DNA of 43,111 nt from Candidatus Zhuqueibacterota bacterium (GTDB taxonomy: Bacteria > Zhuqueibacterota > Zhuqueibacteria > Zhuqueibacterales > Zhuqueibacteraceae), in NCBI GenBank assembly GCA_003576975.1, contig QEVD01000027.1, positions 1 through 43,111 of the forward strand. Direction: 5' to 3'. A model generated the notes under the pieces. The model ran no database searches, had not been told where the DNA came from, and was given only the letters and a program-made list of their open reading frames with translations. The position numbers and the translations under genes are program-made. Below are positions 1,705-32,832 of the stretch, one piece after another. Within the stretch, counting starts at the first letter, position 1, and each line of letters begins with the position of its first letter.

Positions 1705-3444
1705 ATGTCATCGCCGCTGCTTCCCAAACTCTTCACCGTCCTCAAAGAGGGGTATTCCCGCAAACAACTGATGCAGGATTTGACAGCCGGCGTTATTGTC
1801 GGCATCATCGCATTGCCTTTAGCTATCGCCTTTGCTATTGCCTCGGGGGTCAAGCCCGAGCAGGGTTTGTACACCGCGATCATTGCCGGCTTTCTGATCT
1901 CCGCGCTAAGCGGCAGCCGCGTGCAAATCGGCGGGCCGACCGGCGCCTTCATCGTGATTGTTTACAGCATCGTGCAACAGCACGGCTATGATGGCTTGGT
2001 CGTTGCCACCTTCATTGCCGGCATTCTCATCATGATCATGGGTTTTGCCAAACTCGGCGCGATCATCAAATACATTCCCTATCCCGTCACCATCGGCTTC
2101 ACGGCCGGCATCGCATTGATCATTTTCTCCGGCCAAATTCGAGATTTCCTCGGCCTGCCCATCGCCGCCATGCCCGCGGAGTTTGTCGAAAAGATTGTTG
2201 TTTATGCGGAAAACATATCGGCGATTAACTCTTCTGCTCTCGGCATCGGCTTGTTGTCGTTAGCCATCATCATCTTCTGGCCAAAAGTGACGCGCCGCGT
2301 GCCCGGCTCGCTGATCGCGATTCTGGTGTCAACCGCGCTGGTTCATCTGCTGCAGTTGCCGGTGGAGACGATCGGCAGCCGGTTCGGCGAGGCTCCGAAT
2401 TCTTTGCCGGCGCCGCAGGTGCCCAACCTGTCGTGGGATTTGATTGTCAAAATGTTCAACTCGGCGGTGACGATCGCACTGCTTGCCGCCATCGAATCGT
2501 TGCTTTCCGCTGTGGTCGCAGACGGCATGCTCGGCACGCGCCACCGTTCGAACATGGAACTTATCGCGCAGGGAGTTGCCAATATTGCTTCACCGATTTT
2601 CGGCGGCATTCCAGCCACAGGCGCGATTGCCCGCACGGCCGCCAATGTCAAAAATGGCGGGCGCACACCAATTGCCGGCATCATTCACGCCCTCACGTTG
2701 TTGCTCATTATGCTGTTCTTCGGCAAATGGGCAGCGTTGATTCCAATGGCCACGCTTGCGGCAATTTTGATCATGGTGTCTTATAACATGAGTGAGTGGC
2801 ATTTATTCGTCAAGCTCTTTCGCAGCCCGGTTAGTGATGTTGCGGTATTGCTGACAACGTTCTTGCTCACGGTGTTGATCGATTTGACGGTCGCGATTCA
2901 AGTCGGTATGGTGTTGGCGGCCTTTCTCTTTATGCGCCGCATGGCGAGCGTAACGGAAGTCGGCTTTATCACTGCGGATTCGTTGCAAGACGACACCCTA
3001 ACCGATGCCGAGCGCGATCTCGCCGATCCCCTGGCTATTTCGAAACGCCAAGTGCCCGCAGGCGTGGAAATCTTTGAGATCAACGGGCCGTTTTTCTTTG
3101 GTGCAACAGATAAATTCAAAGACACAATGCGCCTGGTGGAGAAGCCGCCCAAGGTTTTGATTCTGCGCATGCGCCAGGTGCCGGCCGTCGATGCGACCGG
3201 CTTACGCGCGCTTGAAGATGTTTTCGAGAAAACCAAGAAAGACGGCACGGTGCTCATCCTCTCCGGCATACGCCGCCAGCCGCTGATGGCATTGCGCCGC
3301 ACCGGCCTGCTCGAAAAAATTGGGCGGAATAATGTCTATCGGCACATTGACAAAGCTTTGCAGCATGCCAAAGAGTTGGTGGCGCCGCAGATCGGCGCGC
3401 CGCCGCACGCGGAACACCGGCCTGCAACATTGAGCCACAGTTAG
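1705..3444 (+). CDS. SulP (SLC26-type) inorganic anion transporter with STAS domain
   Basis: A 579-residue SulP-family permease of usual length. The N-terminal membrane domain (about residues 20-400) opens with the family signature [20 protein letters not shown] and continues with [10 protein letters not shown] and a QIGGPTGAF segment, then repeated hydrophobic helices. A C-terminal cytoplasmic STAS domain follows (about 450-555) with the VDATGLRAL loop corresponding to the conserved STAS loop. Members carry sulfate, bicarbonate, C4-dicarboxylates or other anions across the inner membrane, and sequence alone does not settle the substrate. No carbonic anhydrase or sulfate-assimilation gene lies beside it. 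It appears to be transcribed alone: the upstream gene is divergent and the downstream gene convergent. Confidence 0.93.
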
Positions 3445-5635: not shown

Positions 5636-7486
5636 ATGAAAGCGCCGCAGGACTGTCCGATGATTCTAAAATCTCTCGGAGCCCTGGTTTTTGGTATCCT
5701 TCTGATGACTTCTGTGCAAGCCCGAGGTACAGATGTACGCGGCGAGCAATCCGGCGTCTGGAATCTGGCTGGCAGTCCATACATTGTGACGGGTGACATA
5801 TCCGTGCCTGCAGGAGCAAGCTTGACTATCGAGCCGGGCGTCATTGTGAAATTTTCCGGACCTTACTCCCTGCGCGTCCATGGTGCTTTGCGCGCAGTTG
5901 GCAGCCTGACAGCGCGCATCGTTTTCACCTCCATCAGCGATAATGAATTCGGGGAAGATCGGCCGCGCAATCAGTCCCCCTCCTTCAATGATTGGATTGG
6001 ACTGGTGTTCGCCAATGGCATCGAAGCCGAATCGCATTTAGAGCAATGCATCATCCGTTATTGCCGCAAACCCATTGAATTCGAACAAGGCCAGTCGGTG
6101 TTGGAGAAAATTATCATCTCGGATTGTAGCGCCACAACCCTGGGATTAAATGGAGTTCAGATTCCAATTCAAGATGGCATTCAAGCCACCTATAGCATCA
6201 ACACAGTGGCCGCCACCCCATCCAATTCGCTACAACGTGAGGCCTCGACAGCCGCCACATCGCCAGCCAGCGCCACCTCAGAAGAGCAATTCACCTTCGG
6301 TGAAGTTTCGGCCACCAACTATGCTTTGAAAAATCTGAGCATCTTTGGCTACTTCTCCACGCGTTTTGAGAAAGTCCTGGATGAGCCGAGTGCGGAAAAC
6401 GGACAAACGATAAAAACAGATGCGCCGGCCGAATTTACTTACCCGTTCTTCAATATCATGCTGGAGCATCAGCTTCATCAGCGCTTCAAAATCTTTATCA
6501 ATCTCAATGGTTCCGGCGCCGAAGAAATCCGGGTACAGAATTTTTGGGGTGAATACACGTTTTCCTCCTGGCTGAATTTGCGCCTGGGAAAAATCTATCG
6601 CCGTTTTGGCCTCTATAATGAAATCCTGGATGCCGTGCCTTCTTATTATGGTATTGAGCCGCCGGAATTGTTTGACAGCGATCATTTGCTGATCTCCCGC
6701 ACGACGGCTTTTATGGTATACGGCGCGATGGACGCCGGTCCCGGCATTTTGAATTACAGCGCCAGCACGGATAATGGGGAAGGCAATCCGGTTAAGAACA
6801 CGTTTCCTCTCGGGTATGATGTAAACTACAAACTCGGCGGCGGCGAGTTGGTGTTGGGCACTTCGGGTTACACGTCCGGCGGGCAAACGAATTCCACTTT
6901 GGGCGTCGGCAACGGCGCGCCCCAAAGCGGCGTGCTGCCCTGGATGGTTGTCGATAAATTCTCCATCCTCGGCGGCTATGCCGAAACGCGAATAAAAAAT
7001 CTGACGGTGCAGGCCGAGTATTGGCGCGCCAAACACAATGCACAGCGTGATCCGGCTGCGATCCTGGCGGTTATCAACAATGTTGCGATCAATGCCAATC
7101 AGCTTGCGAGATTTCTCCGGAATCCTGGCCTGGGCGCGACCGAGAACAATGTGGCAACCTCGGCAAAATACAGTATCCATACCTGGTACCTGCGCGCCGG
7201 TTATTCGCTAGAAAGCGCGATCGGAGAATTCGGACCTTACGTGCAGTGGGATTACTACAGCAACCCCGAAACCATTGCCAACAAGGATTTCGGCGGCGAC
7301 AATGAAGCCGGCGTGACGGATGACGGCAAATTCAGCAAAGCCACCCTCGGCCTGGTGTTTCGCCCGATTCCGCAAGTGGCGGTCAAACTTGACGGCAGCT
7401 CTCACTTCCAAAAATTCCACGGTGCGGCGGTCAGGTATTATGATTTGCGCCTCGATGTCTCATATGTTTTTGGGCAATTATTCTAA
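5636..7486 (+). CDS. Outer-membrane porin-like barrel with N-terminal beta-helix-like module
   Basis: 616 residues. A signal peptide (about 1-34) is followed by a module (about 38-185) with the pattern GVWNLAGSPYIVTGDI...PAGASLTIEPGVIVKFSG...RIVFTS...DNEFG, typical of short right-handed beta-helix coils. The same module starts the TonB receptor at 14308. A Ser/Thr/Ala-rich linker (about 195-225) leads to a C-terminal barrel of amphipathic strands (WGEYTFSSWLNLRLGKIYRRFG; LRLDVSYVFGQLF) ending in Phe, as outer-membrane barrels do. The barrel resembles phosphate-selective (OprO/P-like) porins in general pattern, which is inference. A PBP-like gene follows after 67 bases, a common partner of such porins, so the likely role is small-solute or oxyanion uptake. 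Confidence 0.75.
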   Translation: MKAPQDCPMILKSLGALVFGILLMTSVQARGTDVRGEQSGVWNLAGSPYIVTGDISVPAGASLTIEPGVIVKFSGPYSLRVHGALRAVGSLTARIVFTSISDNEFGEDRPRNQSPSFNDWIGLVFANGIEAESHLEQCIIRYCRKPIEFEQGQSVLEKIIISDCSATTLGLNGVQIPIQDGIQATYSINTVAATPSNSLQREASTAATSPASATSEEQFTFGEVSATNYALKNLSIFGYFSTRFEKVLDEPSAENGQTIKTDAPAEFTYPFFNIMLEHQLHQRFKIFINLNGSGAEEIRVQNFWGEYTFSSWLNLRLGKIYRRFGLYNEILDAVPSYYGIEPPELFDSDHLLISRTTAFMVYGAMDAGPGILNYSASTDNGEGNPVKNTFPLGYDVNYKLGGGELVLGTSGYTSGGQTNSTLGVGNGAPQSGVLPWMVVDKFSILGGYAETRIKNLTVQAEYWRAKHNAQRDPAAILAVINNVAINANQLARFLRNPGLGATENNVATSAKYSIHTWYLRAGYSLESAIGEFGPYVQWDYYSNPETIANKDFGGDNEAGVTDDGKFSKATLGLVFRPIPQVAVKLDGSSHFQKFHGAAVRYYDLRLDVSYVFGQLF

Positions 7487-7553
7487 GAGACGCAAACGCC
7501 GCCAGCCGGCTGTGTCAACCAGAGGGATTCGAACATACCTCCCGGAGACGAAT

Positions 7554-8006
7554 ATGTTGTGTGTACGAGGTTATAGAAGACTTGCATTGTGGTGTTTTTT
7601 TGCGTTGGGGATGAGTTGCTGGGCCGCGACTTCAGCCACGGCGCAGATCAGCGTCGTGGTGGCAAAGAACTCCAAAGTGACGATAGACAAGATGACGAAG
7701 GCCGAGGTCAAAAAGATCTTTGCCGGCGTCAAACTCAAATGGAAAGACGGCGGCAAAATTCAGATCATCGATCAGCCCGAGACAGATATCGGCGTTAAAT
7801 TTTACAAAGCCGTGCTGGGAAAGTCTCATATGCAGGTACATAAGCAATGGCTCAAGCTGTTATTGTCTGGCCAGGCTTCCGCGCCGCTGAAGGCGCCTTC
7901 GGACGCCGAGGTGAAAAAAATGGTCAGCCGTCACGCCTATGCCATCGGATATATTGCCGCGAACAATCTGGACGACTCGGTGCGTGAAATTTTGCGCGTT
8001 GACTGA
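7554..8006 (+). CDS. Small phosphate-binding-protein-like (PstS/PBP-like) exported protein
   Basis: 150 residues. A signal peptide ends near ATSATAQ (about residue 32), and then a single domain of the PBP-like type found in PstS homologues begins: ISVVVAKNSKVTIDKMTKAEVKKIFAG, KWKDGGKIQIIDQ, FYKAVLGKS, and GYIAANNLDDSVREILRVD at the end. Only one lobe of a normal two-lobe binding protein is present, with no ABC permease or ATPase nearby. I therefore infer a periplasmic binder or adaptor and not a transporter component. The ATG at 7554 is preceded by CGGAGA. It lies 67 bases behind the barrel gene and 180 before the first TPR gene, probably in one operon. Confidence 0.8.
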   Translation: MLCVRGYRRLALWCFFALGMSCWAATSATAQISVVVAKNSKVTIDKMTKAEVKKIFAGVKLKWKDGGKIQIIDQPETDIGVKFYKAVLGKSHMQVHKQWLKLLLSGQASAPLKAPSDAEVKKMVSRHAYAIGYIAANNLDDSVREILRVD

Positions 8007-8048
8007 GGCGATTGTTCATAAACGTTTGCCGGTCGCCTCTAGCTGTCC

Positions 8049-8100
8049 CGGTTTGCATCTTCATCTGAAACCGCGAATCAGCGCCCGGCGTAACCGGGCG
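8049..8100 (+). other. Two small hairpins between PBP-like and TPR genes
   Basis: CGGTTT (8049-8054) can pair with AAACCG (8068-8073), and CGCCCGG (8082-8088) with CCGGGCG (8094-8100) around a five-base loop. No T-run follows, so these are not classical terminators. They may modulate expression of the downstream TPR genes. Confidence 0.4.
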
Positions 8101-8186
8101 ATATGTTACACCACTGCAATGTGTTAGCGCCGGAGCGCAGCAAACTGGCTGATTATTTTGCAAAACATCGTTTGACGAGGTGAGTA

Positions 8187-10058
8187 ATGAGAAAGCTGAA
8201 TGCGTGTGTACTCATGCTGATTGCTTATATCCTGTGCGCAAGCGTTCCGGAAGCCTGGTCGCAGAAGGCCGAGGCGCTGCAATGGTTCACGGCGGGCGTC
8301 TCCGAAAAAGAGGTCGCGCGAAAAATTCAAGCATATGAACGCGCCATCGAACTTGACCCGCTTTTTGTCGAGGCGCTATACAATCTCGGAATGGTTTATA
8401 AATCACAACAGGATTATGCCCAAGCCGAGCAGTTTCTTCTCAAGGCCAACAATGCCAAAACCGAAAAAACACCGAAAGATTTGAATGTTCGCATTCTTTA
8501 CGAGCTTTCCACCACTTACGCCAAAACCGGGAAACTGCAAGAGGCGGAGGCGGGCCTGCGCAAAGCCCAAAATGCCGTCGACGAGGACCGCATCGCCAGC
8601 ATGATTTCTTTCGAGTTGGGGCGCTTGCTGCACCAGCAGCAGCGTTATGCCGAAGCATTGACGGAGCTGCGCGCCGGTATGAATCGCGTTGCAGAAAACC
8701 GCGGCAAATTCGCGACGCTGATGTTGACGATTCAAAACGAGCAGCAAATGCAGACATTGTACGAGAAAGCTACGCAGGCAAAACAAACCGGCAAGCTTGC
8801 GGACGCGCGCGTGCTGTTTGAAGAAATCCTCCAGCAAGACCCCAACTTCAAAGACGTTGCGGCGCAATTGGAGAGGTTGGATTCGCAGCAAAAGGTTGAT
8901 GCGAACAAAGCGGTGTTTAATTCGCTGTATGAAGAAGCCAGGAAACACGAAACGGCCGGCAACCTCGAGCTGGCGATTGCGGCTTATGAGAAGCTGCTCT
9001 TGCAGGCTGGCGTTTACAAAGATGCGCGCAGCCGGGTGCAGGAATTACGGCAGCAAAACGACAAAATCCGCACACAGAAAAAATTAGAAGAACAATACAT
9101 TCTCGGAATGTCCGCGCTCAAGGCGAAAGATTGGGCGCGCGCCCTCATCATTTTCGAAAACATTTTGCAGGCGGATCGCGAGTTTCGCGATGCGCGCAGG
9201 CGCCGGAACGAGGCGCAGCGCGGCCTGGATCGTGAAAGCTCTGAAACCGTGGTTGCCCGCTTTTATGCCGAGGGCGTTGCGGCCATGGGCCAGGGTGATC
9301 TCACCAGCGCATTGGCGGCGTTTGAGAAGGTACACAAAATCAACCAGGACTATCGCGATATCGCAAGCCTGTTAGTGGAAGTGGAAGAGCAGATTCAAAA
9401 ACAAGGCAACGCATCCGCGGAGATGTCTGCTGCGGCAGCGCCGGTGGCTGATTCACTTTATCAAAATGCGCTGGCAGCGATTCAACAAGAGGATTGGGCA
9501 CAGGCCGTCACGATTTTGGAGAAACTGCAGGCGGCTTCGCCGGAGGACGCCAATTTGGTCGATCTCCTGGCGCAAGCGCGCACCAACCTGCAAATCAGCG
9601 CCGTGAGCGTGCCCTTCAAAGAAGCCGGCCCCGGACATTCCGTATTGATGCTTGGCGGCGTTCTGGCGGCGGTGATCGTACTACCCCTGATCGGTTTCGT
9701 CACATTCTCGCCGACGGTGCGCGCGCGTGTTTCGTTGCTGCGCGGCGACTATCAAAGCGCGGCGCAGATTTATGAACGAATGCTGCAGCAAAAGCCGGGG
9801 CGGCTGAAGCTTTATCCCGTTCTCGCCGATATTTATTTAATGACCGGCCGCCGCGATGAACAGGCGTTGAAAGTTTTCAAAACCATTCTGCAATTGAATC
9901 TCCTCACCGCCAATCGGGATGAAATCAATGCCGCCGTGGCGCAAACCTATCTCTCGCAAGGCAGAATTGATGCGGAAGCGATCAAAGTTTTTGAAGACGC
10001 CTTGCAGGCGGAATATCGCAAAACAGAACAGATGACGCGCAGCAAGAATGGCAGATAA
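8187..10058 (+). CDS. TPR protein A: signal peptide, TPR region, one membrane span, second TPR block
   Basis: 623 residues. A signal peptide (cleavage near AWSQ, about 26) leads to a long TPR region, with repeats such as KIQAYERAIELDPLFVEALYNLG and DWARALIIFENILQAD, and an alternation of DW-type starts and Y(R/K)DA-type ends. One hydrophobic helix (about 485-506) is followed by a conserved 117-residue tail beginning FSPTVRARVSLL with further TPRs (IYERMLQQKP, LYPVLADIYL, KTILQLNL). The predicted topology is periplasmic TPR, inner-membrane span, cytoplasmic TPR. AGGTGAG stands just before the ATG. It is a paralogue of the proteins at 10146, 12263 and 17896. The function is unknown; TPR arrays usually scaffold protein complexes. 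Confidence 0.85.
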   Translation: MRKLNACVLMLIAYILCASVPEAWSQKAEALQWFTAGVSEKEVARKIQAYERAIELDPLFVEALYNLGMVYKSQQDYAQAEQFLLKANNAKTEKTPKDLNVRILYELSTTYAKTGKLQEAEAGLRKAQNAVDEDRIASMISFELGRLLHQQQRYAEALTELRAGMNRVAENRGKFATLMLTIQNEQQMQTLYEKATQAKQTGKLADARVLFEEILQQDPNFKDVAAQLERLDSQQKVDANKAVFNSLYEEARKHETAGNLELAIAAYEKLLLQAGVYKDARSRVQELRQQNDKIRTQKKLEEQYILGMSALKAKDWARALIIFENILQADREFRDARRRRNEAQRGLDRESSETVVARFYAEGVAAMGQGDLTSALAAFEKVHKINQDYRDIASLLVEVEEQIQKQGNASAEMSAAAAPVADSLYQNALAAIQQEDWAQAVTILEKLQAASPEDANLVDLLAQARTNLQISAVSVPFKEAGPGHSVLMLGGVLAAVIVLPLIGFVTFSPTVRARVSLLRGDYQSAAQIYERMLQQKPGRLKLYPVLADIYLMTGRRDEQALKVFKTILQLNLLTANRDEINAAVAQTYLSQGRIDAEAIKVFEDALQAEYRKTEQMTRSKNGR

Positions 10059-10145
10059 ATGACGGCGTCCAGCGCGCTGCGCACGGCATTTTTGCGTCTG
10101 ACTAAAAAGCACCAAACCCTCACCACTCTTCGACGAGGTGAAATC

Positions 10146-11996
10146 ATGCAATCGATCATCCGTGTACGCACAACCGCCTTTGCGCTTTTTTGCCTGGGGG
10201 CATTCGCCGCCGTGGCGCAGGTGAGAAATCAGGACGCCGTACGCTGGTATAATACCGGCGTTAACGAAAAAGATCCGCAAAAAGCCATCGCGGCTTATGA
10301 AAAAGCCCTGGCGCTCGATTCGACGTTTACCGAAGCGCTATTTGCGATCGGCTACGCTTATAACAATCAAAAAGATTTTGCCCGCGCCGAGGGCTATCTT
10401 CGCAGAGCTTCTCGGATCGAATCAGGAAAAAGCAAAGGCGATCTCAAAGCCAAAATCTTATTTGAGCTGTCGAATTCCCATTTTGGCGCAGGGGATTTAA
10501 ACGCGAGCGCAGAAGCGCTGCGTCAGGCCAAAGTCAGCGCCTCCGACGATAAGCTGAAAACCAACATCGTTTTCAAATTGGCGCGTGTGTTGTGCCAGCA
10601 AAATCTTTTTCAGGAGGCTTTGTACGAGCTGCGCGAGCGCCGCCAGCAGGATTCGAAGAACAAAGACAGCTTTGACAACTTTATCAGTCTGGTCGAAAAT
10701 GAAATCGCTGCGGCGCAAACACGCGTGGCGGAAAATACCGCGGCCAATCCAGAGGCTGCCCCTCCCCTGCAACCGCAACTTTCTGATTCACAAACCACGT
10801 TGACACAAGCCGGCGCTCCAAGCGTGAGCCAGCCGGTTAAGATGGCAGAGCAGGCTATTGAAGATCTTTACCTGCAAGCGTTGGGTTATGAAACCGCCAA
10901 CAATCTGGAAATGTCGGCGGCAACCTATGAAAACCTGTTGCAGCAATCTCCAAACTACAAAGACGCCCGCATGCGCTTGCAAACCGTGCAACGCCGTCTC
11001 ATCGAAAAACAAATTGCGCTGGAAGCCGAACAAAAGTATACCGAGGGTTTGGCCGCTCTCCGGGTGAGTGATTGGTTGGGCGCGATTGCCTCGTTCGAAA
11101 AAACCCTCGAGCTGAAGCCCGACTTTAGCGAGGCGCGCCAGCGGTTGCAGGAATCGCAGAAACGGCTCGATCAGGAGAATACCGATGAAATTCTGGCGCG
11201 TTATTACACCGAGGGTTTGAGCGCCATGCGCCGCGGCGATTTGGGCCGTTGCCTGGTTGCGTTCGAAAAAGTGCGCAAGCTCGATCCCAACTATCGTGAA
11301 GTGGCGGCGTTGTTGGCGCAAGTCGAAAGCGAAATTCAAAGCCAACGGCTCTCCGCAATTCCGCAGGCCGTACCGCGCACCGCTTCTCCAGTGGTTGATT
11401 CGCTTTATTATGCCGCGCTCAAATTTTTGCAGCAAAACGACTGGAAACGGGCAGTTGTTACGCTGGAAAAGCTTCGAATTCTCTCGCCCGACAACAGCGA
11501 AGTGGCACGTTTATTGGCGCAAGCGCGCATGAATTTGAGCTTTGCCAGCGCGGAAATGGCCAGCGTTGATGTCAGCAACGATACACGCAAAATATTGACC
11601 ACGGCCGGCGCTGTGTTGGCTGTCATTGTGTTGCCGTTTTTATTCATTTTCATATTCTCGCCTTCAGTGCGCGCACGCTTGCACTTGTTGATGGGCGATT
11701 TTCACGGCGCCTCGCGTATTTATGAGCGCATGCTGACGCAAAAACCGACGCGCGTCGAGTTATACCCCGCGCTCGCCAACATCTATCTGCTTTCCGGCCG
11801 GCGCGACGAAAATGCGATGAAGGTTTATAAAACCGTATTGCAACTCGATCTGCCGTTCCAAAACCGGGAACAGATCAATGCCGTTTTCACGCAACATTAT
11901 TTGTCTAACGGCCGCAGCGACAACGACACCATCAAGGCTTTGGAAAGCGCCATCCAAATCGAGCTGAATCGCAAAAGCGCCCGGCGCGAATCCTGA
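10146..11996 (+). CDS. TPR protein B (paralogue of A)
   Basis: 616 residues with the same plan as protein A: signal peptide (cleavage near AAVAQ), TPRs such as KAIAAYEKALALDSTFTEAL and DWLGAIASFEKTLELKPDF, a membrane helix at about 483-503, then a tail starting FSPSVRARLHLL with IYERMLTQKPTRVELYPAL and KTVLQLDLP. The frame is open back to 10059, directly after the stop of protein A, but the ATG at 10146 follows GAGGTGAA and starts the signal peptide, so I use it. The gene is 87 bases behind protein A and is followed by a strong terminator at 12120-12151, so A and B end one transcription unit. Confidence 0.85.
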   Translation: MQSIIRVRTTAFALFCLGAFAAVAQVRNQDAVRWYNTGVNEKDPQKAIAAYEKALALDSTFTEALFAIGYAYNNQKDFARAEGYLRRASRIESGKSKGDLKAKILFELSNSHFGAGDLNASAEALRQAKVSASDDKLKTNIVFKLARVLCQQNLFQEALYELRERRQQDSKNKDSFDNFISLVENEIAAAQTRVAENTAANPEAAPPLQPQLSDSQTTLTQAGAPSVSQPVKMAEQAIEDLYLQALGYETANNLEMSAATYENLLQQSPNYKDARMRLQTVQRRLIEKQIALEAEQKYTEGLAALRVSDWLGAIASFEKTLELKPDFSEARQRLQESQKRLDQENTDEILARYYTEGLSAMRRGDLGRCLVAFEKVRKLDPNYREVAALLAQVESEIQSQRLSAIPQAVPRTASPVVDSLYYAALKFLQQNDWKRAVVTLEKLRILSPDNSEVARLLAQARMNLSFASAEMASVDVSNDTRKILTTAGAVLAVIVLPFLFIFIFSPSVRARLHLLMGDFHGASRIYERMLTQKPTRVELYPALANIYLLSGRRDENAMKVYKTVLQLDLPFQNREQINAVFTQHYLSNGRSDNDTIKALESAIQIELNRKSARRES

Positions 11997-12018
11997 GGGC
12001 GAATTCTCGTTTGAAATC

Positions 12019-12050
12019 CCTGCGTGCAGTAGCTTGATAAGCACCGCAGG
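12019..12050 (+). other. Hairpin behind TPR protein B
   Basis: CCTGCG-TGC (12019-12027) can pair with GCA-C-CGCAGG (12041-12050) around a 13-base loop. There is no T-run; the real terminator lies about 70 bases further on. The remaining sequence of 11997-12262 shows no gene. Confidence 0.35.
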
Positions 12051-12119
12051 AAAGCGACCGGTTTTCCGAACAAGATATCAAAAGCCGGGATTTTAGAGCG
12101 AAATTTCGTTGCACCGGGA

Positions 12120-12151
12120 CAGGGCAAGCTGTTAGCTTGCCCTGCATTTTT
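12120..12151 (+). terminator. Rho-independent terminator after TPR protein B
   Basis: A perfect 11-base stem (12120-12130 with 12134-12144, core GGGCAAGCT/AGCTTGCCC) around a GTT loop is followed by CATTTTTG. It ends the barrel/PBP/TPR-A/TPR-B unit and implies a separate promoter for TPR protein C. Confidence 0.8.
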
Positions 12152-12262
12152 GTATGGTTTGAAAAATTTATAAGACTTGATTTCGCAAAGCGGCTTTTTT
12201 TGCGGTAATCTTGTAAAATTTGTAAAAAGCGCGCCGCCAAAATTCGTTTTGAGGAATGACGG

Positions 12263-14038
12263 ATGAGAAGTCTCGGGTTAGGTCGAGGGTTTGGAATCTT
12301 GCTGGTGTTGATGGTGCTATGTCCGCGCGCGGCTTGGGCACAATCGCAAAACGAGCAAGCGAACCGCTGGTTTAAATCCGGCTTGAAACAAAAAAACACG
12401 GAACGGGCGATCGCCGACTATCGCAAAGCCATCGCCATCGATCCAGCGTTCAAAGAAGCGCTATTCAACCTGGCGCTGCTTTATCGCAAGCAAAAAGATT
12501 ATGCCCAGGCCAAAACTTTGCTGGAACAGGCGCGCGCGGCCGCCGGGCAATCGCCGGCGGGCGATTTGGCGTTCAACATCTCATACGAACTGGCGTTGAT
12601 TTATGGGCGCATAGAGAGCGCGGACGCGAGTGCGGAAGAACTGCGCCATGCGAAAAGCCTAGCGCCGGACGCCAAGCGGCAAGCGCTGGCCTCGCTGGAG
12701 TTGGCGCGAATACTAAACCAACAGGGCCGCTACCGTGAGGCGTTCGCCGAGCTTGACGAAGGCCGCCGCCTAGATCCGGGCGCACGCGCAAACTTTGACA
12801 AGCTGCGCTCCTCAATCGAAGAGATGCTGCAGCTTGATGAGCTTTATCAAGAAGCTGCCAAAGAACGGGCGGGCGGCAACCTCGAAAACGCCCTGGTGTT
12901 GCTGCAGCAGATTCAGGCGCAATACCCCGGTTTCAAAAACGTGCCGATGGAAATTGCAGATTTGAACGAACAAATCGCGGCAGATAATCAAGAGAAAAAA
13001 GCCGAGCAAATTTATCTGCAAGCGCAAGGATATGAAGCGGACGATCGCCTGGAGCGCGCGATTGCCGCGTACGAAAAACTGCTGGAAATCGCGCCTGCTT
13101 ATAAAGACGCCGAATTTCGTTTGCAGCGGGTTCAGAAACGCCTGGAACAAAAACAGCGCTTGCTGAATGTGCAGCCCTGGCTCGCGGCCATGCAGGCTGA
13201 CACGGGCCGCTCGATCCTGGCGGAACGCGCCCGCCGTTATTACCTCGACGGCCGGCGCGCCATGGAAAACGGAAACTATGCGCGCGCGCTGGTGGCATTT
13301 GAAAAAGCGCGTGAGTTGAATCCCGGCGATGCCGAGGTTGACTACTTGCTGGCCGAGGTGCGGCAGCGTTTGCAGCCGGCCACCACCTTTTTGCCCTTCG
13401 AACAGTTCGCTGACACCGGCCTGACATTCGGGGATTCACTCACATTTTTTGCGTTGGATTCCATTACCCCGGCGCCCAGCGAGACGAGCGCCGCGCCCAT
13501 CATGGCCGCAACGGATTCCGGCGTGACCATTGTGCCTGCGATTACACGTTTGCGCGATGACGATGCAAAATTTTTTGATCAAACAGATTTCACCGCAGGC
13601 GAAGAGGCCGTCGTCGATGCCGGTTTCAATTGGCAAGCAATCATCTTTTCCGGCGCGGCCGTCACGCTGATTTTTTTGTATTTCAAAGGCGTATTTCCAT
13701 TTTCGAGTGAGGTGCATGCGCGCGCATTTCTCTTGCTGGGCAATTTGCAACGCGCGGCATTGATTTATGAAAAACAATTGCAGCGCGATCCGGAAAACAT
13801 GAGTGTCTATCCGCGTTTGGCCGGCGTTTATCTGCGCGCGGGCCGCACAGATGACGCTGCGTTGCAAATTTATGAAAGAACACTGGGGCTCAATCTTGCA
13901 ACGGCTGATCGCGAGAAAATATTTACGCTGGTGGCGCAAAGCAAGCATGCGCCAGGTTTTGCCACACCGGCATCCGATGCCATGCCGAATCAGGCCTCAC
14001 AACCGCAGTATCGTACCTCAGCCCACAAAGGCGTGTAG
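12263..14038 (+). CDS. TPR protein C (divergent paralogue)
   Basis: 591 residues. A signal peptide (cleavage near AAWAQ) precedes TPRs such as RAIADYRKAIAIDPAFKEAL and RAIAAYEKLLEIAPAYKDAEF. The membrane helix is at about 457-477, then a shorter-conserved tail (HARAFLLLGN, IYEKQLQRDPENMSVYPRLAGVYLRAG). It differs from A, B and D: the FSPxxRAR signature is weakened to FSSEVHAR, the segment before the helix is longer and acidic, and the last 30 residues are Ala/Pro/Gln-rich in place of the conserved YLSxG repeat. GAGGAATGA lies shortly before the ATG. The gene probably heads its own unit after the terminator at 12151. Confidence 0.85.
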   Translation: MRSLGLGRGFGILLVLMVLCPRAAWAQSQNEQANRWFKSGLKQKNTERAIADYRKAIAIDPAFKEALFNLALLYRKQKDYAQAKTLLEQARAAAGQSPAGDLAFNISYELALIYGRIESADASAEELRHAKSLAPDAKRQALASLELARILNQQGRYREAFAELDEGRRLDPGARANFDKLRSSIEEMLQLDELYQEAAKERAGGNLENALVLLQQIQAQYPGFKNVPMEIADLNEQIAADNQEKKAEQIYLQAQGYEADDRLERAIAAYEKLLEIAPAYKDAEFRLQRVQKRLEQKQRLLNVQPWLAAMQADTGRSILAERARRYYLDGRRAMENGNYARALVAFEKARELNPGDAEVDYLLAEVRQRLQPATTFLPFEQFADTGLTFGDSLTFFALDSITPAPSETSAAPIMAATDSGVTIVPAITRLRDDDAKFFDQTDFTAGEEAVVDAGFNWQAIIFSGAAVTLIFLYFKGVFPFSSEVHARAFLLLGNLQRAALIYEKQLQRDPENMSVYPRLAGVYLRAGRTDDAALQIYERTLGLNLATADREKIFTLVAQSKHAPGFATPASDAMPNQASQPQYRTSAHKGV

Positions 14039-14296
14039 CCGAAAAGTCTGCTTCACTCAAAAGACGCACTCGAAAACAGATAGCCAGCCGCACCGATTGT
14101 GTAATAAAAGGGGATTTCGGCCACACTCCTAGTTGGACGGCAACGCCGGCGCTCTTTTCCCTGCCGTCACCACCTTCTTCACTTTTCCGCAACCACCGAA
14201 TTTGTCGAGTACAATCTCAAGAATAAACCTAAGCTTGAAGCTTGTTTAAACGCTGCGATCCAGGGCCGGATTCTGATGGCGTGATGTTCATCTCAC

Positions 14297-14302
14297 GGAG
14301 GT
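14297..14302 (+). promoter_or_regulatory. Ribosome binding site deciding a GTG start for the TonB receptor
   Basis: GGAGGT lies five bases before the GTG at 14308, which opens directly onto the signal peptide (MFILHYNFRYIFLTCILVL). The in-frame ATG at 14284 and TTG at 14242 lack such a site. Confidence 0.7.
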
Positions 14303-14307
14303 CGGCG

Positions 14308-17300
14308 GTGTTCATCTTGCATTATAATTTTCGATATATATTTCTCACCTGCATTCTTGTTTTGGCAGTTCAATCCAACTGCGGTCAGATCTTTGCCGGC
14401 GAAGTGTCTGGCGCCCAGCGCGGGATTTGGGGATTGGCGGGCAGCCCTTACACTGTTGTTGGGGACATCGTCATTCCAGCAGGCGAAACGCTCGAGATCA
14501 AACCGGGCGTTGTGGTCAAATTCACCGGCTATTACAGCATTCAAGTTCACGGCACATTGATTGCAAATGGCGGGGTCGCCGATCGCATTGTTTTCACGTC
14601 GATGTATGATAATGAATTCGGCCGGCTCGGCACGCCCAGCCGCAAATTGCCGTCACAGCGGGATTGGCGAGGAATCGAGTTTCGTGGCGAAAATCACAAC
14701 ACCTCGAGCCTGGTTTATTGCATCGTGCGATACAGTGATCAAGCCGTCATCGCGAAATCGTCCCGGCCGGCATTGAGAAATTTGATCATAACCGATTGCA
14801 ACACGAGCAAGCTCATCCTCAATGGCCAAACAATTGCCGTCGTAGACGGCGTTGCGCATGATTATGGCCCGGGCGGCGAGATCGAAGTCGTCACACGCAT
14901 TACAAACGAGGCAACGCCTCATGAGACAGCCGCGCCGGCAAACAACACTCCCGCGAACAATAATACCTCTCTTCCTGCGGAGCCTGAACCTGAAGCGACC
15001 AGCTTTACAACTGACGCCAAGCTGTTTGGCATTGTGAGCGACGAGGAAACCGGCGAACGCTTGCCGGGCGCCAATATCGAACTTATTCCAGAGGGCATTG
15101 AAGGGCAGGCGACCGGCGCCGCTTCGGGCGCGAATGGCGAATTTGAAATCGACAGCGTCGTTCCCGGCATTTACATGATTATGATCACTTATGTCGGATA
15201 CGACAAAAAAACGTTGGGAAATGTGGAACTGGCGCCGGGCATGACCAAGGGGCTTGAAATCACGCTGACCCACATTGGGCTTCAGTTGAATCCGGTGATT
15301 GTGACGGCTTCCCGGCGGCCCGAAAAAGTTTTTGAAGCGCCGGCCGCCATCACGTTGCTCGAAGACGAGCAACTGCAAAAAACCACCATTTCGCCGGTAG
15401 AACATCTGAAAAACGTGCCCGCAGTTGACTTCGCCGCAACCGGCATCAATCAAGCGAATGTTGTTGTGCGCGGCTTCAATAACGTGTTCTCCGGCGCTCT
15501 GCTGGCATTGACGGATAATCGCATTGCCGGCTTGCCCTCGCTGCGCTTCAATGCTTATAATTTGATTCCGCCCGGCAACGACGATCTCGAGCGCATTGAA
15601 ATCGTTTCCGGGCCGGGCGCGGCGTTGTACGGTCCGAATAGCGCCAACGGCGTTTTACATCTCATCACCAAATCACCGTTCGGCTCGGAAGGCACGACGG
15701 TAAGCGCGGGCGGCGGCGAGCGCATTGAGTTCATCGGCGCTTTCCGGCATGCCAACAGTTTCAATGACCGGATCGGCTACAGAATTTCCGGCCAATATTA
15801 TCGCGGCGTTGATTGGCCCTACCGCGATCCGGCAGAGCCGGAATTCTTCAGCGTTAACGGTCAAAACGTGCCGTCCCCCGGGCGCGATTTCAACGTCACG
15901 CGCTTCAGCGCTGATGGCCGCGTTGATTTTCGGCCCATCACCGGCATGACCACCATCGTTTCCGCCGGCGTCAGCCAAATAAGCGATATCGAGCTGACCG
16001 GCATTGGCGCCGCGCAGGCGGTTGATTGGCGCTTCTCTTACGCGCAGGGCCGACTGTACTACAAAAATTTCTTTGCACAAGCGTATCTCAACATGTCAGA
16101 CGCGGGCGATACGTTTTTGCTGCGCACCGGCGCGCCCATCATCGACAAATCAACGCTGATGGCAGGACACGTGCAACACGGCATCACGCTGTTCAAGCGC
16201 CAGCGTTTCACCTACGGGCTTGATTATTTGCAAACCAAGCCCAGCACCGGCGGCACGATCAACAACCGTCATGAGGCTTATGATCGCATCGATGAAAAAG
16301 GCGCATTTCTGCAATCAGAAACGGCGATTTCATCCAAACTCGATTTGATTTTGGCGGCGCGCCTTGATGATCATACGTTTATCAAAAAACAAGTGGCTTC
16401 TTCGCGCGCGGCATTGCTGCTCAAGCCTCAAACGAATCATGCGGTTCGTTTCACGTTCAATCAGGCTTATGGCACGCCCACGGCCAATAATCTTTTTTTG
16501 GATATTTTATCCGCCTCCGTCCCGACCCGCGCGCTGAATCCGTTGCTCGAGCCGTTTGTCGGGCCGGTGTTTTTTAATCTCTATGCCGAGGGCACGGCGC
16601 CTCGCCGCGGCGGCTTCTTGCGGCAAAGTCGCGGCGGCTTCACGTTCAGGTATGACAATGCGCAACGCCCGCAAATGATTTCACTCTTCGGCCCGGCGCT
16701 CGGCATGGGCAATGCTTATTTGCCCCCGGACGTGAATGCCGTGTGGCCGGCATTGCGCACGATCATTCTTGCTGCGCAACCGCCCGGGCCGAACAAAGAC
16801 GCGTTGAGCGCGGCATTGCCGCAAAATTTAAGCGCCCAGGTGCCGGGAATTTTCAGGGCCTATTCCATTGACGAAACCGACAACCACAACCACATTCGAA
16901 GTGGGCTACAAAGGTTTATTGGGCCAGCGCTTGCTGGCGAGCGTCGATGTTTATCGTTCGCGTGTGCGAGATTTCGTCGGGCCGCTGATAGTCGAAACCC
17001 CTCATGTTTTCATCGATCCGGCTGCGCTGGCGCCGGTATTGGCGCATGATCTGACGGCCAACGGTTTTTCCGCGGCGCTCGCGCAGGCCACGGCGCAAAG
17101 CCTCGCACAAAGCCTGGCGGAGTTGCCTCTCGGACTGCTTTCACCGCAAGAAATTCAGAATGCCACGGACGTTATTTTGACGTATCGCAATTTCGGCGAT
17201 GTTTCATTCTATGGCACGGACATCAGCTTCAATTACAATGCAAGCCGAAGCTGGCGTTTCGGGTTGAATTATTCTTTCGTGAGCAAAGATTTCTTTGCAA

Positions 17301-17623
17301 AAAGCGCAAAGCAGCCGCATGACATCGCTTTGAATGCGCCGAAACACAAACTCGGCGCGAGCGTGCATTACAACGATGTGAATACCGGCCTGGATGGCGA
17401 GTTCCGCGTGCGCTACGTCGAAGGCTTCCCGGTGAATTCCGGTGTGTATATCGGCGCCGTGCAAACCTATACGCTTGCCGATCTCGATGTCGGTTATGCG
17501 ATCGGCAGCAACACCCGAACTTCACTCGCGGTGCAAAACGTGTTCGATCAACCTTATCGCGCATTTGTGGGCGCGCCGATCATCGGGCGTTTGATGATTT
17601 TGCGCCTGGTGCAATCGTTTTGA
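14308..17623 (+). pseudogene. TonB-dependent receptor with beta-helix-like N-terminal module, frameshifted near 16870-16895
   Basis: Domains in order: signal peptide; the beta-helix-like module also found at 5636 (GIWGLAGSPYTVVGDI, PGVVVKFTGYYS, RIVFTSMYDNEFG); an Asn/Pro/Glu-rich linker; a carboxypeptidase-regulatory-like domain (GIVSDEETGERLPGANIELI...VGYDKKTL); a plug (NPVIVTASRRPEKVFEAPAAI...VRGFNNVF...EIVSGPGAALYGPNSANGVLHLITK); and a TonB barrel ending in LRLVQSF. The first frame reads to a stop at 17047-17049, but barrel coding moves to the +1 frame at about 16870-16895, within ACAACCACAACC, and continues (FEVGYKGLLGQRLLASVDVYR) to 17623. One extra base (or two missing) explains it, so it is either a sequencing error or a recent mutation. 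The likely role is TonB-driven uptake across the outer membrane; the ligand is unknown. Confidence 0.85.
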
Positions 17624-17895
17624 TCCAATTCGTGCCAGGCTCAACGGCAATCGCTAGAATTGGTTCTTGCAAAGGTTCGATCGGCGCATCAAAAAACTTA
17701 ACAGTTCTCATCAACTCAAGTAACCAAGTCCGGATTTTTTTCGCCCGGGCGAGCGTTAGCCTCCGGACACAGCAGGAAACAAGCAAAAGACCCGGGCACA
17801 ATTGCTTTGCAAATTTAACATCACCTCAGACTTACTAGGACTATGAATGACACGGATGAGATCATTTGCGAACGATACTTCTGAGGAACTCATCT

Positions 17896-19782
17896 ATGCT
17901 ACGCCATTATTTGATACTCGCCGCCTGCAGCCTGCTCATGCTCGCTGCGCCTGCCGTCAAAGCCGATACCAATGACTCAAAAAGCCAGCGCGCACAGCAA
18001 TGGCTTGAAACAGGCTTGAACGAACGCAATCGTCAGAAAAAAATTGCGGCATTTACCCACGCCCTTGAAATCGATCCAGATTTCGTCGAGGCCGCGTACA
18101 ATCTCGGCCTGGTTTACAAGCAGCAGCAGGATTATGCCCGGGCGGAACAATTCATTGCGCGCGCGCATGCGAACGCCGCAACAATAACCAACGAAGAATT
18201 GAAACTCGCCATTCTCTACGAACTCGCGACCACTTATAAAAGGCGCAACAAGCTTGCGCAATATGAACAAACATTGCGGGCGGCCAAAGCGCAGGCGCGC
18301 GAAAAAGAGATGGGCGGCACCATAGCATTCGAGCTTGGGCGGTTTTTATATCAGCAAGAGCGCTGGCAGGAAGCCTTGGTGGAATTGCGCGAGGGCGAAC
18401 GGCTCTACCCGGCGCAAGCACAAACCTTCGCTAATCTCATCCGCCTGTCCGAAAATGCCGCAGCGCTACAGCGCCTGTACCTCGCCGCTGAGCGGGCTGA
18501 ACGCGAAGGCAAGCTTCAGGAAGCAAAAAATCTCTATGCCCAAATCGCGAAGCAAGCTCCGCAGTTCAAAAATGTTCAAGAAAAACTGGCGGCGCTGACC
18601 GCTGCCTTGCAGAAAAAAGAGGCGGAGGCCGCGTGGCTGGCGCTCTATCAACGCGCACAAGCTCATGAAACCGCGGGCAATTGGGAACGGGCGATCAATT
18701 CGTATGAAGACTTGCTGAAAATAGCGGGCGATTTCCGCGATGCGCGCGCACGGCTGCGCTTTGCGCTGAAACAACTCGAACGCCGGCAAAACGCCTCGCG
18801 CAAGGCCGCGGACGAATGGGCGCCGCTTTATGATGAAGGCGTGCAGGCCTTTACCCGAAAAAATTGGGCCGCCGCCGTGCGGGCGTTTGAACAGATCGCC
18901 AACTCAGCGCCCAATTATCGCGACGTGCGCAAACGCCTGGCACGTGCGCGCGAGGCGCAGCGGCTCGAATCCAACGAGGCCGAAGTGGAACGCTATTACG
19001 CCGACGGCGCAACAGCCTACGCCGTCGGAGATCTGCATCGCGCCCTGGTTTTGTTGGAACACGGTTATCGGCTGAATCCCAATTATAAAAATATTGCGAC
19101 GCTTTTGGCCAATACCAACAACCAATTGGAACAACGGCGCACAACCGTCATCCGCGAGACAGTTCCCGCAGCGCCCACGCCGCAAACCGATGCGCTTTAC
19201 TCCGCTGCCTTGGCTGCCATCGAACAGCAGGATTGGCGGAACGCAGTCGCAGCGCTGGAGAAACTGCAGCAAGACTTGCCGGCTGATCAAGAAATCAATC
19301 AATTGCTCGCGGAGGTGCGTGTGAATTTGAGTATCACCGAAGCAAACTCGCGCAGAGTCTCGGCCAGCACGGGCAGCACCTCCGTCATGTTTATCGGCGG
19401 CGCGGTCACCGGATTGTTGTTATTGCCCTTGTTCGGGGTGATGATGTTTTCACCGATGGCGCGCGCGCGTTTTTATTTGCTGCAGGGAAACTATAATGCG
19501 GCCGCGCGAATTTATGAAAACCGCCTGGCGAGCAGGCCGAATCGCGTGCAGCTCTATTCGATGTTAGCCAGCATTTACTTGCTTGCCGGCCGCAAGGATG
19601 AAACGGCTATAAAAATCTACAAAACGGTTTTACAACTGAATCTCGCAACGCGCAATCGTGATGAGATCAACACGATTGTAGCGCAAGCCTATCTTTCAGA
19701 AGGCGCGAAAGACACGGACGCGATCAAAATTCTGGAAGATGCGCTGCGCGCCGAAGTACGCAATGTCCACAAAAAGCGCTGA
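17896..19782 (+). CDS. TPR protein D (paralogue of A and B)
   Basis: 628 residues. A signal peptide (cleavage near AVKAD) precedes TPRs such as KIAAFTHALEIDPDFVEAAYNLG, NWAAAVRAFEQIANSAPNYRDV and DWRNAVAALEKLQQDLP. The membrane helix is at about 496-517, then the tail FSPMARARFYLL with IYENRLASRPNRVQLYSML, KTVLQLNLATRNRDEINTIVAQAYLSEG. It is closer to A and B than to C in the tail. The frame is open back to 17866, but GAGGA eight bases before the ATG at 17896 supports this start. It follows the TonB receptor after 272 bases that contain no recognisable gene. Location after the receptor suggests that a TPR protein pairs with each barrel. Confidence 0.85.
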   Translation: MLRHYLILAACSLLMLAAPAVKADTNDSKSQRAQQWLETGLNERNRQKKIAAFTHALEIDPDFVEAAYNLGLVYKQQQDYARAEQFIARAHANAATITNEELKLAILYELATTYKRRNKLAQYEQTLRAAKAQAREKEMGGTIAFELGRFLYQQERWQEALVELREGERLYPAQAQTFANLIRLSENAAALQRLYLAAERAEREGKLQEAKNLYAQIAKQAPQFKNVQEKLAALTAALQKKEAEAAWLALYQRAQAHETAGNWERAINSYEDLLKIAGDFRDARARLRFALKQLERRQNASRKAADEWAPLYDEGVQAFTRKNWAAAVRAFEQIANSAPNYRDVRKRLARAREAQRLESNEAEVERYYADGATAYAVGDLHRALVLLEHGYRLNPNYKNIATLLANTNNQLEQRRTTVIRETVPAAPTPQTDALYSAALAAIEQQDWRNAVAALEKLQQDLPADQEINQLLAEVRVNLSITEANSRRVSASTGSTSVMFIGGAVTGLLLLPLFGVMMFSPMARARFYLLQGNYNAAARIYENRLASRPNRVQLYSMLASIYLLAGRKDETAIKIYKTVLQLNLATRNRDEINTIVAQAYLSEGAKDTDAIKILEDALRAEVRNVHKKR

Positions 19783-19963
19783 TAAAATTTTGTGCAGCCG
19801 CCTCCTCCCTGCTCCGGCGTTTGCCGCCAGCGGCCGGGGACTCATCTCGGCTAAAGTCATTTCCGCCGGCGGCGTTTAGTTGAGATTAGTTCTTGCTTCT
19901 CGGGGTGAAATAGAATATTTTCAGCGAAATTTTTTTAACCCAGGACCGACGATTCATCCGACA

Positions 19964-21139
19964 ATGGCTCACCAACAATCACGCGCGGCACGGCATTCCC
20001 TCTCTCCTGAAATCGATCAGACGCTTTGGCAAAAAGCGCAGGCACTGCATGGCAATTTGTTGACCATCGATACGCATGCCGACACGCCTCTGGTTTATTT
20101 AAAACAACCCTTCGATCTCACCATGCGGCAGGCGCAAGGGCATCTGGACATTGCGCGTATGCGCGAAGGCAAGCTGCGCGTGCAATTTTTTGCGGCTTAC
20201 ACGCCCACCCGCTTCAGCATGGGCGAGGGCGCGCTTCATTTCGGCATGCGCATGCTGGATATCATTCATCACATGATTGAGTCGCATCCGCAAGACTTTG
20301 CGCTGGCGTATTCGAGCGCGGACATTCGCCGGCTGGCGGAATCCGACAAAATTGTGCTCGCCATCGGCATGGAAAACGGCGAGCCGATTGAGGGCAATCT
20401 CGCGAACCTTCGAAATTTTTACCGCCTGGGCGTGCGCTATCTTACGCTGACACACTGGCTGAATAATCATCTCGGCGACAGCTCGACGGACGCCGAGCCG
20501 TTGTGGAACGGCTTAAGTGATTTTGGCAAGGAAGTCGTGCAGGAATGCAATCACCTCGGCATCATGATTGATGTTTCACACGTGCATGACACGGTTGTCG
20601 ATGCCTGTTTAGATCTCAGCCGGGCGCCGCTGCTTGCTTCGCATTCGAATGCTCATGCCTTGTGTGATCATCCGCGCAATCTCAGCGATGATCTCATCAA
20701 ACGCATTGCTGCTGCCGGCGGGGTTATTCAGGTCAATTTCAGCAATGATTTTCTGAGCCAGCCGCATTGCAATCATAGCCGCCGCTATGAAGCCGAAGAA
20801 CAACGCCTCAAGCAAGAGCTTGACAATTCCGAAGAAGTGGTGATTTTAATGAAAGAATGGCTTGCCCAAAATCCGCCGCCAGCGCCTCCGCCGATCGATA
20901 TCATCATCGAGCATATCGAGCATATCGTCAATCTCACCGGCAGCGTTGAGCATGTCGGTTTTGGCTCTGATTTCGACGGCATCAAATACACGCCGGCAGG
21001 CCTCGAGGATGTCAGCGCCATCCCAAAGCTAACATATCATTTGCTCAAGCGCGGTTTTTCGGAAAAGGATATACAAAAGATTTGGGGGGAAAACCTGCTG
21101 CGCGTCATGGCCTCGGCGGAACAAGCTGCCGGCCGCTGA
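19964..21139 (+). CDS. Peptidase family M19 (membrane-dipeptidase-like)
   Basis: 391 residues, without a convincing signal peptide, so probably cytoplasmic. The zinc-site pattern of renal-dipeptidase-type enzymes is complete: TIDTHADTP near the N-terminus, IGMENGEPIEGN, LTHWLNN, DVSHVHD, LASHSNAH followed by HPRNLSDD, and VGFGSDFDG near the C-terminus. M19 enzymes hydrolyse dipeptides, often tolerating D- or dehydro-residues at the C-terminal position. The ATG at 19964 has only a weak upstream site; an in-frame TTG at 19880 is possible but its extension is not family-like. A second, membrane-anchored M19 gene lies at 28712. No operon partner is evident. Confidence 0.9.
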   Translation: MAHQQSRAARHSLSPEIDQTLWQKAQALHGNLLTIDTHADTPLVYLKQPFDLTMRQAQGHLDIARMREGKLRVQFFAAYTPTRFSMGEGALHFGMRMLDIIHHMIESHPQDFALAYSSADIRRLAESDKIVLAIGMENGEPIEGNLANLRNFYRLGVRYLTLTHWLNNHLGDSSTDAEPLWNGLSDFGKEVVQECNHLGIMIDVSHVHDTVVDACLDLSRAPLLASHSNAHALCDHPRNLSDDLIKRIAAAGGVIQVNFSNDFLSQPHCNHSRRYEAEEQRLKQELDNSEEVVILMKEWLAQNPPPAPPPIDIIIEHIEHIVNLTGSVEHVGFGSDFDGIKYTPAGLEDVSAIPKLTYHLLKRGFSEKDIQKIWGENLLRVMASAEQAAGR

Positions 21140-22031: not shown

Positions 22032-22133
22032 GCATCGGGCCGAAATAACTCATTCGAAAAACAGCAGTTGCATTATTGAGATTTTATGTTATATTCTGAT
22101 CACGCAATTCTACCAAGCGTGATGAGGCATGCC

Positions 22134-31431: not shown

Positions 31432-31455
31432 ATGAATTCCCCTGTGCCTATTTGA

Positions 31456-32721: not shown

Positions 32722-32832
32722 CCGTGATCAGCCAATCTTGTTTAGTTCAGGATACTCAAAGAAACGACTTCTCTTGACGCCGTCATTCATGCGGACTTCC
32801 TTGCCGAATGAACGCAGCATTTCTGCACAAAA

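Follow-up and report, generated by a model that had tools for sequence, protein, structure and literature searches.

Outer-membrane receptor cassettes beside TPR-TM-TPR genes: a candidate route to a kinase and pseudokinase system in the candidate phylum KSB1

What do two outer-membrane barrels, a one-lobe periplasmic binding protein (PBP) and four membrane-spanning tetratricopeptide repeat (TPR) proteins do in a single run of genes? The question is raised by positions 5636 to 19782 of contig QEVD01000027.1 (assembly GCA_003576975.1), from a Candidatus Zhuqueibacterota bacterium. The whole stretch analysed, 43,111 nucleotides and here called the window, is contig C224 of genome G000, an assembly of 7.25 Mb in 776 contigs. 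The phylum, KSB1, has since been renamed Zhuqueibacterota and is described as uncultured in the available part of PMC11683472. Pfam and open reading frame (ORF) readings bear out the first-pass annotation, made from the DNA letters, in that a porin-like barrel (barrel 1), the PBP, TPR A to D and a TonB-dependent receptor (TBDR) all lie on the + strand with no other gene type between them. That annotation proposed an uptake locus. The locus is a join of two cassettes that are found apart in relatives, one with barrel 1 and the PBP and one with TPR A, B and C, the TBDR and TPR D. We lean, with modest confidence, towards a reading in which these cassettes couple outer-membrane receptors, through TPR-TM-TPR transducers (TM, transmembrane), to a system of kinase, pseudokinase, FHA protein and phosphatase. 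A sensing system is likelier than a nutrient pump because the receptor genes adjoin TPR-TM-TPR genes that belong to a kinase operon in relatives. This case is built on sequence-level readings: which genes are present and in what order, how they recur in relatives, their domain architectures, the state of catalytic residues and the presence of a TPR-TM-TPR gene in the slot of a HAMP transducer.

The four TPR proteins share one architecture, namely an N-terminal hydrophobic segment (a predicted signal peptide), periplasmic TPRs and a single TM helix, followed by a conserved tail of ~100 residues with a predicted cytoplasmic location. They are TPR A (8187..10058, +; tail 9621-10025), TPR B (10146..11996, +; tail 11568-11972), TPR C (12263..14038, +; tail 13616-14017) and TPR D (17896..19782, +; tail 19363-19764). 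All are homologous, the tails of B, C and D being 52%, 37% and 54% identical to that of TPR A. Lysine and arginine are commoner after than before the TM helix in 61 of 82 family members, TPR A and C among them, and a cytoplasmic tail fits this pattern. The AlphaFold2 model of TPR B contains helices only, with a mean pLDDT of 75.6 but a pTM of no more than 0.34. The earlier suggestion that these proteins bridge periplasm and cytoplasm is compatible with both sequence and model, the topology itself being unproven. The tail is present in 26 of 290 genomes (E <= 1e-10), all of the window's own class. At E <= 1e-8, 29 of 82 genomes from the phylum have it, among them the same-species genome G099 and two with weak matches, G020 from the same class and G078 from a different one. 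A scan of named genomes gave a single locus, in KSB1 bacterium MAG_5 (JABWAN010000050.1). Elsewhere in the window's own genome, a frame at a contig end (L012 2-1018, G000:C452) has a long proline/glutamate-rich stretch ahead of a TM helix and of the first part of a TPR tail, where the frame then seems to be lost.

Which genes accompany this family was read in 71 loci in the locus listing (window included) and 98 in the neighbour count, with L146 in place of L075. Labels were assigned by phmmer with seeds from the same loci, so that dissimilar barrels may escape. The most frequent partner is an operon that, in other families of the class, runs in the order membrane Ser/Thr kinase, FHA protein, PP2C phosphatase, TPR-TM-TPR protein and a TPR-kinase. 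In G018 the membrane kinase contains kinase, TM, PEGA and CarboxypepD_reg segments, the FHA protein joins FHA and TM segments to FG-GAP repeats, and the PP2C phosphatase has a TM segment. Among 60 TPR-tail clusters (window counted twice, G099 three times, as two barrel clusters and one with neither partner), 30 adjoin Ser/Thr kinase, FHA or PP2C genes, 17 lie next to a barrel or MOD gene (MOD being an N-terminal module described below) and 3 adjoin both. The 17, which include the window twice and G099 twice, comprise 14 firm barrels (L056, L060 and L011 by Pfam), one MOD-only protein (G021:C27) and two doubtful cases. G004:C930 was scored as having neither partner, the PBP there separating TPR and barrel genes, as was G013:C469, whose adjoining TPR-kinase is cut ahead of its kinase domain; L070 (G037), a TPR-TM protein lacking the tail, stands outside the 60. 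Within the loci fetched for the tail, a kinase-system label falls on 50 of 132 direct neighbours of TPR-tail genes and on 0 of 141 genes at least five places off. For barrel/MOD labels the counts are 18/132 and 2/141, with three of the 18 belonging to the doubtful set (G002:C4, G003:C19) and with a p value, 9e-5, that is optimistic because neighbours in related genomes are not independent. One barrel locus, L011 957-10344 (G000:C273), has on one strand an OMP_b-brl_4 barrel, a TPR-TM-TPR gene, a peptidase-like gene and a protein whose C-terminal end appears TonB-like by eye.

The protein that closes the kinase operon, for example at L073 8354-17669 (G000:C390), appears to be a pseudokinase in all readable copies. 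Taking this ~770-residue "cytoplasmic TPR" protein for a plain TPR protein was ruled out by its Pfam kinase domain, and the motifs point to a pseudokinase. The loci read hold 58 kinase-domain proteins, 26 membrane kinases and 32 TPR-kinases, whose motifs were assigned by pattern reading and not by structure-based alignment. Membrane kinases keep the HxD aspartate and DFG in 26 of 26 cases. TPR-kinases keep the catalytic aspartate in 0 of 31 readable loops (mostly HxN), no loop being found in the G047 copy; DFG survives in 2 and is gone from 28, with 1 unreadable at a contig end. In 12 of the 32 TPR-kinases the TPR part is also matched by a hidden Markov model (HMM) of the TPR tail, with E as low as 5e-16.

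In several genomes receptor genes and kinase-system genes meet directly. In two genomes of the window's own family, G003 and G005, a single co-directional run unites a TBDR, incomplete in G005 where the contig ends, with TPR-TM-TPR genes and a TPR-pseudokinase gene, which further weakens the uptake reading. In G043 the run is PP2C, MOD-bearing TBDR and TPR-kinase, and in G021 a MOD-only protein of ~220 residues stands between PP2C and a TPR-TM-TPR gene. TBDR and TPR genes are linked in four families, f1, f2, f5 and f9, the TPR protein of f9 being one that has no tail. In all four own-family kinase operons read (G000, G001, G002, G003), the TPR-TM-TPR gene is absent from its usual slot, and these four genomes do carry TPR-TM-TPR genes at receptor loci; it is as if the gene had moved from the kinase operon to the receptors. 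Among 99 genomes, the FHA protein is matched in 25 of the 25 that are TPR-positive, over most of its length in 24 and over the FHA domain alone in G004.

The TBDR (14242..17623, +) carries an N-terminal MOD (14389-14868) followed by CarboxypepD_reg, Plug and barrel domains. It was correctly recognized in the first pass, Plug and TonB_dep_Rec domains being found by Pfam in the window pieces and in the intact same-species copy; in the window the reading frame is broken near 16861, giving pieces of 935 and 251 residues. The G099 copy is a single frame of 1144 amino acids, and ~49 bases near 16861 are absent from the window copy, which may be an assembly fault or a real lesion. A second TBDR beside a TPR-TM-TPR gene, at L056 8939-10913 (G002:C1), is likewise in two frames, with Plug in one and the barrel in the other. 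Barrel 1 and the TBDR share an N-terminal module: MOD of barrel 1 (5720..6196, +), which lies between signal peptide and barrel, is 45% identical to MOD of the TBDR over ~160 residues. A search of the PDB with MOD gave nothing significant (best E 0.45). MOD occupies the position where the STN domain would stand in FecA-type receptors. No STN domain was found by Pfam (E <= 0.001) in 11 of the 11 MOD-bearing TBDRs scanned; these receptors therefore do not look like FecA-type transducers. Strong MOD genes number 14 at E <= 1e-25 (query included), and 11 of them lie beside TPR-TM-TPR or kinase-system genes; among these 11, the G037 TPR protein has no tail and the gene pairs of G021:C1 and G047 are divergent.

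The other receptor candidate begins with barrel 1 (5636..7486, +), which has a signal peptide, the N-terminal module of beta-helix-like appearance, a linker and an OprO/OprP-like porin barrel (about 6311-7486). OprO and OprP are 16-strand anion-selective porins. Barrel 1 itself matches no Pfam or NCBIfam family; the profile of its family matches Porin O (E 4.5e-5) and Porin P (E 0.039) in the PDB, and its structure model, from an alignment of two sequences (window and L089), is uninformative (mean pLDDT 27.7). The PBP (7554..8006, +) is a one-lobe PstS-like periplasmic protein that matches NCBIfam TIGR02136 under the cut-off (E 5.9e-11; profile positions 118-226 of 295). PF12849 is matched by 14 of 23 members of its family (E <= 0.01), and the family profile matches PstS structures.

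Elsewhere in the phylum, the porin/PBP pair, judged from its neighbours, is a candidate sensory cassette. The neighbours were read for 31 PBP genes: 30 of 51 PBP profile matches together with a diverged PBP, named by eye, of G002:C4. (The gene caller missed the PBP genes of L121 and, at L142, of G099.) A porin-labelled gene lies directly upstream in 28 of the 31. Directly downstream, 22 have a HAMP transducer. In 3 of these it is a chemoreceptor and in 19 a histidine kinase, of which one is truncated at a contig end and another is divided between two frames. Among 20 loci labelled as histidine kinase, Pfam finds HAMP, HisKA and HATPase_c in 17; L131 has HAMP and HisKA at a contig end, L139 has a sensor half in one frame with the kinase-labelled frame behind, and L128 is a chemoreceptor. 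In two loci, those of the window and G004, the transducer slot is occupied by a TPR-TM-TPR gene, and it is mainly because of this placement that the TPR-TM-TPR protein is read as a transducer. Of the other seven, four are followed by other or unrecognised genes and one stops at a contig end; in the remaining two, both from G002, the porin is preceded by a TPR-TM-TPR gene. Cassettes of porin, one-lobe PBP and HAMP transducer are common in the phylum, with several per genome in some cases (e.g. L022 9097-13605).

The join of the two cassettes can be followed in relatives. TPR A, B, C, TBDR and TPR D are syntenic in the congeneric genomes G001 and G002, where barrel 1 and PBP are missing from the locus; in G002 the orthologues of these two lie on contig C5, behind a separate TPR-TM-TPR gene. 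G004:C930 keeps the window order of barrel, PBP and TPR. A possible extra set of porin, TPR, porin and PBP in G002:C4 was named by eye, its barrels and PBP having no Pfam match. The outcome that the first pass had named as a refutation, barrels and TPR proteins not occurring together in related genomes, did not come about, as the 17 of 60 clusters and this synteny show. The picture of one locus with two barrels holds for this species (G000 and G099) and for no other among the genomes read. Since an AlkB-like gene flanks the locus in G001, G002 and the window, the porin/PBP cassette may have entered this species at the junction between AlkB and TPR A. The G004 orthologue of barrel 1 is 63% identical and has no MOD; the simplest reading of MOD in barrel 1 is a domain transfer inside the locus. 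The first pass also treated barrel 1, PBP, TPR A and TPR B as one unit with a terminator behind. A terminator-like hairpin with 11 pairs, 7 of them G-C, and a T-rich tail does lie behind TPR B (12120..12144, +), and the proposed unit is divided in relatives, where barrel 1 and PBP lie apart from TPR A, B and C. Terminator-like sites as a whole are not enriched (29 observed, 25.8 in shuffles), and therefore only this long stem stands out.

How might the parts work together? At the outer membrane and in the periplasm, the receptor of cassette 1 would be the OprO/OprP-like porin with the one-lobe PstS-like PBP, and that of cassette 2 the TBDR with its periplasmic MOD. Receptor state would be passed to a TPR-TM-TPR protein, whose periplasmic TPR solenoid may contact MOD or PBP and whose single TM helix would span the inner membrane. 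On the cytoplasmic side, the predicted tail may dock on the TPR part of the TPR-pseudokinase. The presumed partners of that protein, namely the membrane Ser/Thr kinase, the FHA protein and the PP2C phosphatase, are encoded at G000:C390, and the state of the receptor would set the level of cytoplasmic Ser/Thr phosphorylation. The ligand sensed by the porin/PBP pair may be an anion, phosphate for instance. A broader proposal, which we put forward tentatively and at somewhat less than even probability, is that one class of KSB1/Zhuqueibacterota has a hitherto undescribed form of trans-envelope signalling in which one cytoplasmic phospho-switch (membrane Ser/Thr kinase, FHA-propeller, PP2C and TPR-pseudokinase) integrates many inputs from interchangeable outer-membrane receptors (MOD-bearing TBDRs, porin/PBP pairs) through TPR-TM-TPR adaptors. 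If true, this would be a modular route, with a conserved pseudokinase in it, that links TonB-dependent receptors or porins to eukaryote-like kinases, adding to FecA-type sigma signalling and the threonine pathway of the type VI secretion system (T6SS). The domain assignments make the proposed path from receptor to kinase directly testable.

Several observations weigh against coupling of the receptors to the kinase system. The kinase operon is outside the window, this genome's copy being on another contig (G000:C390), and 16 of the 60 TPR-tail clusters have neither partner directly adjoining. Two barrel labels are doubtful, that of G002:C4, assigned by eye with no Pfam match, and that of G003:C19, which depends on the G002:C4 seed at E 3e-8 and also has no Pfam match. 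One MOD-bearing TBDR (G031:C30) lies among glycosidase-like genes with no TPR gene adjoining, and another two (G006:C465, G031:C197) are truncated where their contigs end. The tail HMM matches 0 of 7 TPR-kinases of the window's own family in the loci read, and the similarity between tail and TPR-kinase may be ordinary TPR resemblance. The FHA protein is matched in 18 of 74 TPR-negative genomes, and the kinase system can therefore do without TPR-TM-TPR proteins. The positive-inside signal is moderate, with a tie in TPR B and D. Resolution in the tree of tails is poor, with 27 of its 75 inner branches open; partner labels change often across the tree, and it has too few columns to decide the number of TPR gene moves.

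Of the alternatives, the one that survives best, though still unlikely, takes the TPR-TM-TPR proteins as assembly or scaffolding factors for envelope machines, in the manner of Tgl, PilW and GltE, with the kinases controlling assembly and the barrels as clients. The family does show weak NCBIfam similarity to Tgl, PilW, GltE and MamA, but far under the cut-off and of a kind that resembles generic TPR. The kinase operon of f7 genomes continues into T2SSF/T2SSE genes (L066 11488-15492; one locus scanned) or stands beside secretin and Wza/Wzz-type polysaccharide-export genes (L105 1-1023, 13232-16800; one locus scanned), and surface machines may be outputs of the kinase system in some of these genomes. 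However, no pilus gene was recognised, by eye, beside own-family TPR-TM-TPR genes, and a periplasmic chaperone would not need a conserved cytoplasmic tail.

Uptake is less probable again. Here two outer-membrane routes would share periplasmic TPR adaptors that pass substrate to unlinked inner-membrane transporters. TBDRs and OprO/P-like porins are transport proteins, the PBP is PstS-like, and a SulP-like anion transporter, named by eye, lies upstream of the locus at 1705-3444. As the first pass reported, no ABC transporter, ExbB/ExbD or TonB gene was found among the window proteins scanned, a set that covers part of the window ORFs. Against uptake, no transporter was noticed to recur with the cassettes (unlabelled neighbours having no systematic annotation), HAMP transducers follow the porin/PBP pair in most of the loci read, and the kinase operon is the commonest partner of the TPR family. 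Moreover, a single PBP lobe is not expected to close round a substrate. The weakest alternative, a lineage-specific paralogue expansion with partly accidental neighbours, in which the four copies share no task with the barrels, might draw on the 16 clusters without partners, the single-species join and the frequent label changes, but is made very improbable by the excess of barrel/MOD labels on direct neighbours (kinship uncorrected, three labels doubtful), by TBDR-TPR linkage across f1, f2, f5 and, with the tail-less protein, f9, and by dN/dS values against G099 of 0.07-0.38 across the seven locus segments (barrel 1, 0.26), few changes underlying these values.

How does the proposed coupling to a kinase system compare with systems already known? 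FecA/PupB-type receptors pair with a single-pass inner-membrane protein, much as the TBDR here adjoins a TPR-TM-TPR gene. TonB-dependent cell-surface signalling (FecA/FecR/FecI, PupB/PupR) also offers a TBDR with an extra N-terminal periplasmic domain, as described in the available parts of PMC11637429 and PMC7186176. Here, by contrast, MOD replaces STN and a Ser/Thr kinase system is the linked output; the direct TBDR neighbours in the window, G001 and G002 are TPR genes, with neither FecR nor an ECF sigma gene among them, no whole-genome search for FecR having been made. The T6SS threonine phosphorylation pathway (TagQRST-PpkA-Fha-PppA) likewise combines a Ser/Thr kinase, an FHA protein and a phosphatase with an upstream sensor module, according to the available part of PMC11323562. 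Ser/Thr kinase, FHA and PP2C genes are encoded together in relatives and at G000:C390, and not in the window. The receptors differ from that pathway in being a TBDR or a porin with PBP, with TPR-TM-TPR and TPR-pseudokinase proteins in addition; no TagQRST-like gene was noticed in the loci, no family search having been aimed at them. VipB (PF05943) is found in 3 of 15 TPR-positive genomes searched (G000, G099 and G006), in G000 on contigs other than that of the kinase operon, and T6SS was rejected as a general output on this count.

Closer to hand, the porin-PBP-HAMP cassettes have the same porin and one-lobe PstS-like families in the same gene order, the window and G004 having a TPR-TM-TPR gene in place of the HAMP histidine kinase or chemoreceptor; no description of these cassettes was found in the literature searched. 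OprO/OprP and PstS resemble the barrel and PBP families in sequence profile. The locus differs in its single PBP lobe and in the N-terminal MOD on barrel 1, and no Pst ABC gene (PstA/B/C) or two-lobe PstS was seen in it. As the first-pass annotation had it, no named system of this composition came to light, and the combination of receptor, TPR-TM-TPR protein and kinase system was not described in the literature searched, a partial coverage that does not imply absence from print.

The rest of the window holds genes of other kinds. Downstream of the locus are two M19 membrane dipeptidases on opposite strands (19880-21139 and 28712-29896) and, at 22086-23938, an adjoining pair of proteins with HU-like DNA-binding domains, the second of which has a further ~400 residues and a hydrophobic segment. 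A set of genes for tryptophan/kynurenine breakdown (FAD monooxygenase, kynureninase, S9 peptidase and tryptophan 2,3-dioxygenase) occupies 30058-38074 on the - strand.

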